A DNA stretch of 64,000 nt. Origin: Verrucomicrobiota bacterium. GTDB taxonomy: Bacteria; Verrucomicrobiota; Verrucomicrobiia; Opitutales; Opitutaceae. The notes beneath the pieces were generated by a model. That model ran no database searches. It had not been told where the DNA came from and saw nothing but the letters and a program-made list of their open reading frames with translations. The translations under genes and the position numbers were made by a program. Below are positions 16,510-23,144 of the stretch, in pieces. Within the stretch, counting starts at the first letter, position 1, and each line of letters starts with the position of its first letter. Location of the stretch: assembly GCA_016222805.1 (NCBI GenBank), contig JACRQG010000032.1:186001-250000 (forward strand). Direction: 5' to 3'.

Positions 16510-17394
16510 ATGTCCCGAGTCAACCACCCAGCCTGGCTTCTTCTCGCATTCCTCGCCGGAAGCACGCAGCTAAGTGCCGAGGGCGTCGCTCCCAGTGCCG
16601 CCAAACTGATCGATTTCGGCGGCGGCTGGGCGATTACCAACTCGATGGCGACCGGCTGGGCGATTTCCGGCCTGTTGGTCGGCCTGGTGCTCTGGCTGGT
16701 GGGCAAGCCCTCCATCATCCCCTCCAAGGGTCAGGCCGTCATGGAATCCCTGATCGAGGGCCTGCGGGGAATCTTCGAACCCATCGTCGGCAAACACGCC
16801 TTTCCCGCCGCCTTTCCGCTGCTGATCACGTTTTTCATCTTCATCCTGTTCCATAACTGGATGGGGCTGATTCCCGGTGTCGGCACGATCGGCTGGGAGC
16901 GGGTCACGGCGGACGGGCATCACGAGTTCATCCCGTGGATCCGCCCGCACAACGCGGACTTCAATGGCACCATCGCACTCGCGCTGATCTCCTTCGGGGC
17001 CTGGGCGATCATCGTCTTCAAGTTCGCGGGCCCGAAGATGATTCTCTGGGATCTGTTCGGCAACAAGGCCGACAAGAAGGAGACGCCCGGCTGGCTCTAC
17101 CCGATCCTTTCGCTCGTGTTCCTCATCGTGGGCTGCATCGAGGTATTCTCGATTGCGATACGCCCGTTCACCCTCTCCGTGCGGTTGTTCGGCAATATCT
17201 TTGGCGGCGAGAACCTGCTCCACGGCACCGGCTTCCTCTTCGTCTTCTACTTCATGGAACTGCTCGTCGGCGTGATCCAGGCGCTGGTCTTCACGCTGCT
17301 GACCTCCGTGTATATCGGGCTCCTCTGCAACCACGAGGGCGGCGACCACGGACACGACGACCACTCCGGCGAGGGCGCCGGCGCCCACCACTAG
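16510..17394 (+). CDS. atpB: ATP synthase F0 subunit a
   Basis: Subunit a forms the proton half-channels against the c-ring in the inner membrane. The 294-residue protein begins with a signal-peptide-like helix (WLLLAFLAGSTQLSA), as seen in related long forms. It has about five or six further membrane helices. The essential arginine is in SVRLFGNIFGGE at about residue 225. The C terminus is histidine- and acid-rich (HDDHSGEG). It is the first gene of the eight-gene atp operon; no atpI is seen. The ATG at 16510 starts the signal-like helix. Confidence 0.95.
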   Translation: MSRVNHPAWLLLAFLAGSTQLSAEGVAPSAAKLIDFGGGWAITNSMATGWAISGLLVGLVLWLVGKPSIIPSKGQAVMESLIEGLRGIFEPIVGKHAFPAAFPLLITFFIFILFHNWMGLIPGVGTIGWERVTADGHHEFIPWIRPHNADFNGTIALALISFGAWAIIVFKFAGPKMILWDLFGNKADKKETPGWLYPILSLVFLIVGCIEVFSIAIRPFTLSVRLFGNIFGGENLLHGTGFLFVFYFMELLVGVIQALVFTLLTSVYIGLLCNHEGGDHGHDDHSGEGAGAHH

Positions 17395-17467: not shown

Positions 17468-17677
17468 ATGATCACCACCATCGCTGAACTGCAGGGCAAC
17501 ATCGCCAGCGCGTTCGGTCTCCTCGGCGCCGCCATCGGCGTCGGTCTCATCGGCCTCAAGGCCGCCGAAGCTGTCGGCCGCAACCCCGGCGCCTAGGGCA
17601 AGGTCCTCGTTCAGGCCATCATCGGAATGGCGCTCGCCGAAGGTCTCGGCATCCTCGCGCTCTTCCTCGCCAAGTAA
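17468..17677 (+). CDS. atpE: ATP synthase F0 subunit c, interrupted by an in-frame TAG
   Basis: The frame encodes a typical 69-residue c subunit: a glycine-rich first helix (GLLGAAIGVGLIGLKAAEAVG), the polar loop RNPGA, and a second helix with GMALAEGLGILALFLAK. The ion-binding glutamate is residue 58. Codon 43 (17594-17596), immediately after the polar loop, is TAG. The frame continues intact to a TAA at 17675-17677 and the residues after the TAG are fully conserved-looking. Translation stopping at codon 42 would lose the second helix and the essential Glu. A single base change from TCG (Ser) would explain it. Sequencing error, recent mutation or readthrough are possible. Gene position between a and b is normal. 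Confidence 0.9.
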
Positions 17678-17716
17678 TCTTCCTGGTTTCCGGCAGCGCG
17701 CCCCGCGCGCGCTGCC

Positions 17717-18286
17717 ATGTCCCTTTTCCCGCCCGCCATGACGCTGCCACTCCTCCTCGCCGCCGCCGTCGATCACGCCGCCCAGCCCGGCATTGCCGAG
17801 AAGTTCGGGCTCGAGACGAAGTACATCATCATGCAGGTGATCAGCTTCCTGATCGTCCTGGGCGTGCTGTACAAGTTCGGCATCAAGCCCGTCACGGCGA
17901 CGATGGAGGAGCGCAACCGCAAGATCGCCGAAGGCATCAAGCACGCCGAGGAAATGCAGGCCAAGCTGGCCGCGGCCCAGCAGGAGAGCGCCGCCATCGT
18001 CAAGAAGGCCAACACCGAAGCCACGCGGATCGTCGAGGACGCCCGCAAAATGGCCAAGGATTACCTCGACAAGCAGACCCAGGAGGCGACCGCCAAGGCC
18101 AGCGACCTTCTCGTCAAGGCCCAGCAGGCAATCGAGCTCGAGCACAAGAAGATGCTCGCCGACGCCCGCACCGAGATCGCCCGCCTGGTGGTGACGACCA
18201 CCGAGCGCGTGCTCGCGAAGAAGCTCACCGACGCCGACCGCGCCTCCTACAACGAGGCCGCCGCCCGCGAACTGACGAGCGTCTGA
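17717..18286 (+). CDS. atpF: ATP synthase F0 subunit b
   Basis: Subunit b is the peripheral stalk that connects the membrane sector to the F1 head. The 189-residue protein has one membrane helix near residues 37-56 ([19 protein letters not shown]). A long charged coiled coil follows ([18 protein letters not shown] onwards). Only one b gene is present, implying a b2 homodimer. Start at 17717 or at the internal ATG at 17738 cannot be decided; neither changes the membrane helix. Confidence 0.93.
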
Positions 18287-18326: not shown

Positions 18327-18722
18327 ATGGCCTCCGGCAAAAAGCAAATCCAGCAACTCGCCCGCCAGTTTTTCCAACTGAGCCTGGTCGACGGAGAGCC
18401 TACCGCCGACCGCGTCGCCGGGGTGCTGGCGTACCTCGAAAAACACCCGCCGGCGCACAGTCTCGCGGTGCTCAAGGCCTACCAGCGCCTGATCGCCGCG
18501 GAAGTCGCCCGCCGTCAGGCGGTGGTCGAGCATGCCGGTCCGCTCCAGGCGGCCGCGCTCACGGCCATCGCCGCCGCCATGACCGCCCGCTACCAGCGTC
18601 CGATCCGGGGCGTGGCGCGCCGCAACGATGCCCTGCTCGCCGGCCTGCGCGTGCGCGTTGGCGACGACGTCCTTGAGTCTTCCGTGGCCGGCCAGCTCGA
18701 CCAGCTCGCGCGTGCCGTCTGA
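18327..18722 (+). CDS. atpH: ATP synthase F1 subunit delta (short form)
   Basis: Subunit delta joins the peripheral stalk to the top of F1. This copy is 131 residues against the usual 175-185. Its C terminus carries the recognisable GLRVRVGDDVLESSVAGQLDQL strand-helix signature, but the N-terminal helical domain that binds alpha is reduced. It sits 40 bp after atpF and 39 bp before atpA, exactly where delta is expected. The open frame does not extend usefully upstream of the ATG. Assignment rests on position plus the C-terminal motif. Confidence 0.82.
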   Translation: MASGKKQIQQLARQFFQLSLVDGEPTADRVAGVLAYLEKHPPAHSLAVLKAYQRLIAAEVARRQAVVEHAGPLQAAALTAIAAAMTARYQRPIRGVARRNDALLAGLRVRVGDDVLESSVAGQLDQLARAV

Positions 18723-18761: not shown

Positions 18762-20288
18762 ATGAGCTCCGTTCTCGAACAAATCGAACAACAGATCGCC
18801 AAACTCTCCAGCAAGGCCGTCAAGAAGAACACCGGCAACATCCGCACGGTTGCTGACGGCGTGGCCAAGATCGAAGGCCTCTCGGACGTGATGTACAACG
18901 AGATGGTGCAGTTCCCGGGCGGTGCCATCGGGATTGCCCTCAACCTCGAAGAGGATGAGGTCGGCTGCGTCGTGCTCGGCGACATCTCGAAGCTGAAGGA
19001 AGGCGACGAGGTGCAGACCACCGGGCGCCTGCTGTCCGTGCCCGTCGGCAAGTCCCTGCTCGGCCGGACGGTCGACGCCCTCGGCAATCCCATCGACGGC
19101 AAGGGTCCGATCGCCTCCAAGGAATACTACCCCGTGGAAAAGATCGCCCCGGGCATCATCGTCCGGAAGTCGGTCTCCCAGCCGCTCCTCACCGGCATCA
19201 TGGCGATCGATTCGATGATCCCGATCGGCCGCGGTCAGCGCGAGCTGATCATCGGCGACCGCGGCACCGGCAAGACCACGATCGCAATCGATACGATCAT
19301 CAACCAGGCGAAGATCAACAAGGTCGGCCTCGCCAGCGGCGACCCGAAGTTCCGCCCCGTTTACTCCATCTACGTCGCGGTTGGGCAGAAGAATTCCAAC
19401 ATCGTCCGCACCATCGGCGCGCTCGAGTCCGCCGGGGCGCTCGAATACACGATCATCGTCGCCGCGCCCGCGGCGGACAACCCCGCCAACCAGTATCTCG
19501 CGCCGTACTCCGGCGCCGCCATGGGCGAGTGGTTCATGGAAAACGGCATGGATGCGCTGATCGTGTACGACGATCTGTCCAAGCACGCCGTCGCTTACCG
19601 CCAGATTTCGCTCATCCTCAAGCGCCCGTCCGGCCGCGAAGCGTATCCGGGCGACGTCTTCTATTTGCACTCCCGCCTGCTGGAGCGCTCGGCGCGCCTG
19701 GAAGGCAAGGGCTCGCTCACGGCGCTGCCGATCATCGAAACCCTCGCGGGCGACGTCTCGGCCTACATCCCGACCAACGTCATTTCGATCACCGACGGCC
19801 AGATCTTCCTCGAGACCGATCTCTTCAATCAGGGCATCCGTCCCGCCGTTTCGGTCGGTCTTTCGGTCTCCCGCGTGGGTTCCGCCGCGCAGATCAAGGC
19901 GACCAAGCAGGTCGGCGGCAAACTGAAGGGCGAACTCGCGCAGTTCCGCGAACTAGCCGCCTTCGCCCAGTTCGGTTCGGATCTCGACGCCAAGACCAAG
20001 GCGCAGCTCGACCGCGGTTCCCGCATCGTCGAACTCTTCAAGCAGCCGCAGTTCAACCCGCTGCCGATCGAGCTGCAGGTCGCGGTGCTCTTCGCGATGC
20101 AGAAGGGCTACTTCGACCCGATCGACGTGAAGAAGATCGTGGCCGCCGCCACCTCGATGAAGGAGTTCTTCCTCACCCGGAAGGACGCGCTCCTGAGTGA
20201 AGTGCGCACCAAGGCCGCCCTCGACAAGGATCTCGAAGCCAAGCTCCAGGCGGCCTGCGACGAGTGGAAGGGCTCGTACAGCTCCTGA
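18762..20288 (+). CDS. atpA: ATP synthase F1 subunit alpha
   Basis: This non-catalytic nucleotide-binding subunit of the F1 hexamer has 508 residues. The P-loop GDRGTGKT lies at 165-172 and the signature [17 protein letters not shown] is present, which includes the arginine finger region. The C-terminal helical domain is complete. It sits in the standard position between delta and gamma with short spacers, so it is part of the single atp transcript. Confidence 0.98.
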
Positions 20289-20333: not shown

Positions 20334-21215
20334 ATGGCCTCCACCCGCGACATCCGCCGACGCATCAAGTCGGTCAAGAACACCCGCCAGATCACCAAGG
20401 CGATGGAGCTCGTGGCCGCTTCGAAGATGAAGAAGGCCCAGCAGGCCGCCCTGGCGGGCCGGCCCTACGCCGAACTCATGGCGCGCATGCTGGCCGCGCT
20501 CGCCGACCGCGTGGAGGAGGCGCAGCATCCGTTCCTGGTGCGCCGCGAGGTGAAGACCCGCGGAATCATCCTCGTCACGACCGACAAGGGCCTGGCCGGT
20601 CCGCTGAATGCCAATCTCTTCAAGCTCGTCACCGAGATTCGCACTCCCGCCAAGTACGCGGTGATCGGCCGCAAGGGCGCCCAGTTCATCGCCCGGACCC
20701 GCCGCGATCTGCTCGCCGACTTCACCGTCAGTGACCGGGTCGCATTTGCCGAGGTCAAGGTGGTCGCCGAGTTCATGGTGCAGCAGTACCTCGAGGGCGT
20801 CGTCGACACCGTGGAGATCATCTGGCCGCGGTTCCGCAACACCCTGGTGCAGGTGCCGACCCTGCTGCCGCTCCTGCCGCTCACGAGCGTCAAGGACGTG
20901 ATCGCCGATCTTCGCTCCGATGCCGGCGCCGGCGCGCGTACCGCCCAGGCGACCGAACAGCAGATGCTGTTCGAACCGGATCCGGAGACCGTGTTGGCCG
21001 CCTTGCTTCCGCTCTACGTCAACCGCGAAATCCATCAGCAGGTGCTCGATGCCAAGGCCTCCGAGCACAGCGCCCGCATGGTCGCGATGAAGACGGCCAA
21101 GGACAACGCCACCAAGCTCCTGGCGGACCTCACGCTCGAGTACAACAAGGCCCGGCAGGCCGCGATCACGCAGGAAATCCTCGAGATCGCCGCCGCGCAG
21201 TTCGCCGCCGCCTGA
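20334..21215 (+). CDS. atpG: ATP synthase F1 subunit gamma
   Basis: This is the central rotor shaft of F1, 293 residues. The N-terminal helix begins ASTRDIRRRIKSVKNTRQITKAMELVA, the canonical coiled-coil start. The C-terminal partner helix includes EHSARMVAMKTAKDNATKLL followed by NKARQAAITQEILEI. The central Rossmann-like domain contains TDKGLAGPLNANLF. It lies 45 bp after atpA and 46 bp before atpD. The length is normal. Confidence 0.97.
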   Translation: MASTRDIRRRIKSVKNTRQITKAMELVAASKMKKAQQAALAGRPYAELMARMLAALADRVEEAQHPFLVRREVKTRGIILVTTDKGLAGPLNANLFKLVTEIRTPAKYAVIGRKGAQFIARTRRDLLADFTVSDRVAFAEVKVVAEFMVQQYLEGVVDTVEIIWPRFRNTLVQVPTLLPLLPLTSVKDVIADLRSDAGAGARTAQATEQQMLFEPDPETVLAALLPLYVNREIHQQVLDAKASEHSARMVAMKTAKDNATKLLADLTLEYNKARQAAITQEILEIAAAQFAAA

Positions 21216-21231
21216 TGTCACCACCCTTTAA

Positions 21232-22728
<1,497 letters not shown>

Positions 22729-22736
22729 TCCCCGCC

Positions 22737-23144
22737 ATGCCGCTCACGCTCGAAATCGTCACGCCGGAGGCCAAGGTCTACTCGGACACGATTGATACCG
22801 TCGTCATTCCCACGGTCGAGGGCGAGGTCGGCATCCTGCCGGGACACATTCCGCTGCTCACCCAGGTCGAGGACGGGGAACTGCGCGTCACGAAGGCGGG
22901 GGCGACCGAACTTCTCGCCGTCAGCGGCGGTTTTGCCGAGGTTGAGGGAGATTGCGTTCGGGTGCTGGCCGAGCACGCGATCAGCGAAGACAAGATCGAC
23001 GAAAAGGCGGTGGAAGAAGCCCTTCGACGGGCCCAGGAGCAACTGGCCGAGGCCAAGAACCTGGATCCGCAGCAATACGAGAAGCTCCTCGACTTGGTCC
23101 GCTATTCCGGAGTCCAACTCGCCGTAAAGCGACGCAAGCGATAG
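22737..23144 (+). CDS. atpC: ATP synthase F1 subunit epsilon
   Basis: Epsilon is the regulatory rotor subunit that contacts gamma and the c-ring. The 135-residue protein has the N-terminal beta-sandwich (LEIVTPEAKVYSDTIDTVVIP, GILPGHIPLLTQ) and a C-terminal alpha-helical hairpin (EEALRRAQEQLAEAKNLDPQ). It ends the atp operon. A GCAAGC-GATA-GCTTGC hairpin spans its TAG stop codon and a GGCGA-TTTT-TCGCC hairpin follows. Confidence 0.95.
   Translation: MPLTLEIVTPEAKVYSDTIDTVVIPTVEGEVGILPGHIPLLTQVEDGELRVTKAGATELLAVSGGFAEVEGDCVRVLAEHAISEDKIDEKAVEEALRRAQEQLAEAKNLDPQQYEKLLDLVRYSGVQLAVKRRKR

Follow-up and report, generated by a model that had tools for sequence, protein, structure and literature searches.

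Why does the atpE gene (ATP synthase F0 subunit c) of a member of the Opitutaceae carry an amber codon in the middle of its reading frame? Is the codon translated, is the gene broken, or is the sequence wrong? The window that we analyzed is a 64-kb stretch of DNA (G000:C38:186001-250000) from an assembly of 7,906,178 bases in 51 contigs, which is 95.6% complete and 2.75% contaminated. Positions 17468-17677 of the window translate as MITTIAELQGNIASAFGLLGAAIGVGLIGLKAAEAVGRNPGA*GKVLVQAIIGMALAEGLGILALFLAK* (the asterisks are stop codons), and the identical letters are present in the host contig (G000:C38:203468-203674). An earlier, sequence-only reading described the frame as intact save for a TAG at codon 43, which immediately follows the motif RNPGA and lies upstream of an ion-binding glutamate at residue 58; our translation confirms this description. 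Most likely, as argued below, the TAG is either a fault in the sequence or a mutation of very recent date, rather than a new reading of the genetic code.

The frame is a genuine atpE gene and not a chance open reading frame, because the ATP-synt_C profile (PF00137) matches across the TAG at 41 bits (cutoff of 24 bits). Besides this match, two features expected of subunit c are encoded, the RNP loop and an acidic residue in helix 2 (Glu58); what fails is the expectation of an uninterrupted frame. It shares its length, the RNP loop, Glu58, and the gene order with the AtpE proteins of other Opitutaceae, to which it is up to 97% identical, but it has TAG where the relatives have serine or, in a few cases, alanine. 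The gene is flanked by atpB and atpF and belongs to a cluster with the order atpB-E-F-H-A-G-D-C (Table 1). All seven of the other genes match the expected ATP synthase families in Pfam, and their translations contain no internal stops.

Table 1. Features of the atp cluster, in window coordinates
Feature	Position	Strand	Remarks
atpB, subunit a	16510..17394	+	PF00119; no internal stop; terminal TAG
atpE, ATP synthase F0 subunit c	17468..17677	+	PF00137 match across in-frame TAG; 97% identity to nearest relative
TAG at codon 43 of atpE	17594..17596	+	Ser in 98/106 related loci, Ala in 8/106
Codons 44-69 of atpE, 3' of TAG, including Glu58	17597..17674	+	Conserved, by substitution counts versus near relatives
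atpF, subunit b	17717..18286	+	PF00430; no internal stop
atpH, delta	18327..18722	+	PF00213; 131 amino acids, short but of usual length among relatives
atpA, alpha	18762..20288	+	PF00006; no internal stop
atpG, gamma	20334..21215	+	PF00231; no internal stop
atpD, beta	21262..22728	+	PF00006; no internal stop
atpC, epsilon	22737..23144	+	PF02823; no internal stop; terminal TAG

The match of the atpH product (131 amino acids) to OSCP in Pfam covers only positions 87 to 171 of the 172 in the profile. The delta subunit has 128 to 134 amino acids in 70 of the 74 named relatives that we measured, and its N-terminal domain seems to be much reduced in this group. Also, the spacer that separates atpE from atpF contains a strong, GC-rich hairpin (10 pairs with a 5-base loop) at 17692-17716.

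Two simple ways of rescuing atpE can be set aside. Reinitiation, or a split gene, would have to use codon 54, which is the sole in-frame ATG 3' of the TAG and would leave just 16 residues; there is no in-frame GTG or TTG between the TAG and codon 54. Frameshifting would not help because the reading frame is unchanged 3' of the TAG.

We then compared codon 43 across 110 related loci: 29 from a search of 57 genomes, 80 named loci, and 1 from a search of the family. The named records are those closest to this genome's atpB, and their titles are mostly Opitutaceae, Opitutae, or Verrucomicrobia. At 107 of the loci there was a match to atpE, and 106 of these matches cover codon 43, which encodes serine in 98 cases (84 TCC, 11 TCG, 2 TCA, and 1 TCT) and alanine in 8 cases (6 GCC and 2 GCT). 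None of the 106 has a stop at codon 43, and none of the 107 has a stop anywhere in the aligned part of atpE. These loci are not all independent: L005/L133, L007/L125, L008/L126, and L013/L101 give identical counts, and each pair is probably one assembly under two names.

Wider searches for atpE covered 57 relatives (52 matched), 252 genomes from the family (236 matched), and 372 genomes from the order (332 matched); these sets overlap, and each includes this genome. Among the matches listed, a stop was flagged in 13 other genomes, and all 13 are the ordinary terminal stop at the C terminus. The AtpE proteins of these genomes (L080, L081, and L182-L192), which belong to the order or the family, stop about two residues short of where this one ends, so that the search counts the terminal stop as lying inside the match. 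Since the TAG is absent from all of the relatives that we examined, programmed readthrough of a conserved stop is not supported.

How common are faults in atp genes in such assemblies? Searching the 80 named loci for the eight atp genes gave 582 matches with three flags, and none of these is a clear lesion: the stop in atpF of L095 lies ahead of a usable start, the flag in atpD of L090 is due to a paralogue that matches at the end of a contig, and the flag in atpA of L159 is a scaffold gap of N. Thus, faults in atp genes are rare in comparable assemblies. This yardstick bears equally on a sequence error and on a real mutation.

The second half of atpE had been described as not decayed, and the substitution counts agree. 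Across 30 loci with at least 90% identity, nonsynonymous differences were seen at 3.0% of codons 44-69 versus 7.7% of codons 1-42, and synonymous differences were seen at 25% versus 24%, so these counts show no sign of decay or relaxed constraint 3' of the TAG. The conservation of the 3' half, together with the lack of any examined relative that shares the TAG, makes the TAG a singleton and a very young difference. TAG is one base change away from the serine codon TCG and two changes away from TCC. TCG accounts for 284 of the 915 serine codons in the window's predicted genes, and the ancestral codon was presumably TCG. The TAG at codon 43 creates a CTAG site. CTAG is strongly avoided in the window (10 found versus 54.5 expected), and 4 of the 10 sites are the terminal TAG codons of predicted genes.

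As to whether UAG is translated, TAG looks like an ordinary stop in this genome. We found 45 tRNA genes, and all of their anticodons could be read. All 20 amino acids are represented, and the set includes tRNA-Ser(CGA) (L071), which is the expected reader of TCG, and tRNA-Gln(CUG). None of the 45 has the anticodon CUA of an amber suppressor, in an assembly that is 95.6% complete. The RF-1 domain is present in three proteins of the genome; one of these (L180) is above both curated cutoffs for release factor 1 (464.9 bits versus 400 and 454.1 bits versus 423.25), and L179 is above the curated cutoff for release factor 2. For pyrrolysyl-tRNA synthetase (PylS), there were only weak matches, with a best score of 19.7 bits versus a cutoff of 178.15. 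The sequence-only reading had argued from the ends of other genes that TAG is not generally reassigned, and this holds up: a gene call based on codon usage gave 46 open reading frames in the window, of which 12, including the truncated atpE, end with TAG, and the 11 of 45 other than atpE include mnmE, atpB, and atpC. More broadly, none of the 83 ABC-transporter domains in the whole genome contains an internal stop. The CUA search, release factor 1, the low PylS score, the terminal TAG codons, and the ABC-transporter domains together are why we view TAG as an ordinary stop. Reassignment of UAG is rejected because release factor 1 is kept, TAG is in use as a stop, and no tRNA with anticodon CUA was found among the 45; decoding as pyrrolysine is rejected because PylS is below the cutoff.

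Besides a sequence error and specific readthrough, the sequence-only reading had listed a very recent lesion with a second atpE elsewhere. However, when the whole assembly was searched with the protein, there were one real match to atpE (E = 4.1e-34) and three chance matches (E = 0.28 to 0.57). Similarly, the atpE locus is the sole match to PF00137 in the host assembly; as a control, this profile was positive in 14 of 14 control genomes, archaea among them. Neither search found a second atpE or another c-type subunit above any cutoff in the 7.9-Mb, 95.6%-complete assembly. Having one copy is usual: exactly one atpE match was found in 52 of the 57 genomes, a set that contains this one, and no match in the other five. 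Two matches in a genome are rare and, among the matches listed, were seen in G257 (family search) and in G317 and G455 (order search). Because these searches for a second atpE and for a suppressor tRNA came up empty, two of the explanations that had been offered find no support, and what is left is an error in the sequence or else a recent lesion that has no back-up in the assembly.

Between these two, we favor an error in the consensus sequence, with a probability of roughly 0.6; the chief rival is a recent nonsense mutation. (This figure and the weights that we give to the other three explanations are judgements.) The assembled consensus would carry a wrong base at codon 43, the organism's actual codon would be a sense codon, most likely TCG, and the cell would make an ordinary subunit c. 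That the sequence, and not the organism, is at fault is our inference. In favor of an error, this is the only copy of atpE that we found, and it lies within an otherwise unbroken atp cluster; all 106 of the loci that cover codon 43 have a sense codon; TCG is a common serine codon here and is a single change from TAG; there is no relaxation 3' of the TAG; and the CTAG that it creates is an avoided word in the window. A low rate of substitution errors would also suffice. In 14 of the window's genes, 2.6% of single-base changes (1,497 of 56,961) produce a stop. By simple arithmetic, an assumed error rate of 1e-4 yields about 0.1 to 0.2 false nonsense codons per 64-kb window, or about one per six to ten windows, so meeting one false stop while scanning windows needs no special cause. 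Three observations count against an error: the assembly looks good elsewhere, judging by the 83 stop-free ABC-transporter domains and by a partial audit of the window in which we noticed no split gene; most relatives have TCC (84 of 106), which is two changes from TAG, and few have TCG (11 of 106); and there is no clear lesion in the 582 atp matches from the 80 named loci.

A real and very recent nonsense mutation, either in the strain that was sequenced or in whichever strain dominated the sample, is a serious competitor, to which we give about one chance in three. Translation would stop after residue 42, no c-ring would form, and the cell would live with no functional F0, perhaps by fermenting; a back-up copy would be unnecessary if the cell could do without ATP synthase in the conditions in which it grew. 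One change from TCG suffices for this as well, the assembly is otherwise free of internal stops in the 83 ABC-transporter domains, and the conserved second half fits a lesion that is too young to have decayed. However, losing F0 is costly to the cell, and a natural population would not be expected to carry a null allele as its majority base. Also, no second atpE was found in the assembly, the seven other atp genes have no internal stops, and the aligned part is free of stops in all 107 of the related loci with an atpE match. In genome records, both single-base nonsense artefacts and young nonsense mutations resemble this case in being a single substitution, a singleton, with conserved flanks and with no compensating feature found; the difference is that the gene struck here is usually held to be essential.

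There is a slight chance that the unassembled part of the genome holds an atpE copy with a sense codon at this position, or else a tRNA that suppresses amber codons. The completeness of 95.6% leaves some room for this, and G257, G317, and G455 have two atpE matches each, among the matches listed. However, the atp cluster itself is assembled, 52 of 57 genomes have a single atpE match and five have none, and the set of tRNAs is complete for the 20 amino acids. Furthermore, strong suppression should be detrimental to the other genes that end with TAG.

The least likely explanation is specific readthrough at codon 43, perhaps by tRNA-Gln(CUG), that controls the supply of subunit c. The c-ring requires many copies of this subunit. 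The atpE gene does resemble cases of amber recoding (UAG reassignment, pyrrolysine, or programmed readthrough) in having an in-frame UAG with conserved sequence 3' of it; the frame is open and conserved 5' of the TAG as well, and tRNA-Gln(CUG) is present. Unlike in those cases, no CUA tRNA was found, PylS is below the cutoff, release factor 1 is present, TAG is in use as a stop, and none of the examined relatives shares the stop. The 120 nucleotides downstream of the TAG (17597-17716) have moderate predicted structure, but this is weak as a readthrough signal: z = -1.97, 8 of 200 shuffled sequences fold as well, and the strongest stem is 3' of the normal stop of atpE. In the chloroplast ATP synthase gene atpB, recoding is reported to repair a lesion (PMC8254509), which makes rescue conceivable in principle; that lesion is a frameshift, however, and nothing comparable is seen at atpE here. 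Reporter measurements in another study give UAG readthrough of about 0.01% in Pseudomonas putida, 0.005% in P. aeruginosa, and 0.024% in Escherichia coli (the last derived from "12%, 500 times higher") (PMC9481147). These rates of about 0.005 to 0.024% contrast with the many copies of subunit c that are needed. A literature search found no report of atpE nonsense codons or readthrough in the Opitutaceae. It is very improbable that the TAG is real and is efficiently read through in one species via an unrecognized device that spares ordinary TAG stops; no suppressor tRNA was found, and such a device explains nothing that is otherwise unexplained. On that reading, the inserted amino acid would sit where the examined relatives have serine or alanine.

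If the TAG is a consensus error, as we think most likely, then its sole consequence is that one record needs correcting. If instead the TAG is real in a living strain, then this would be a natural F0-null bacterium, or else one that reads through a stop with surprising strength in a housekeeping gene with a high-copy product.
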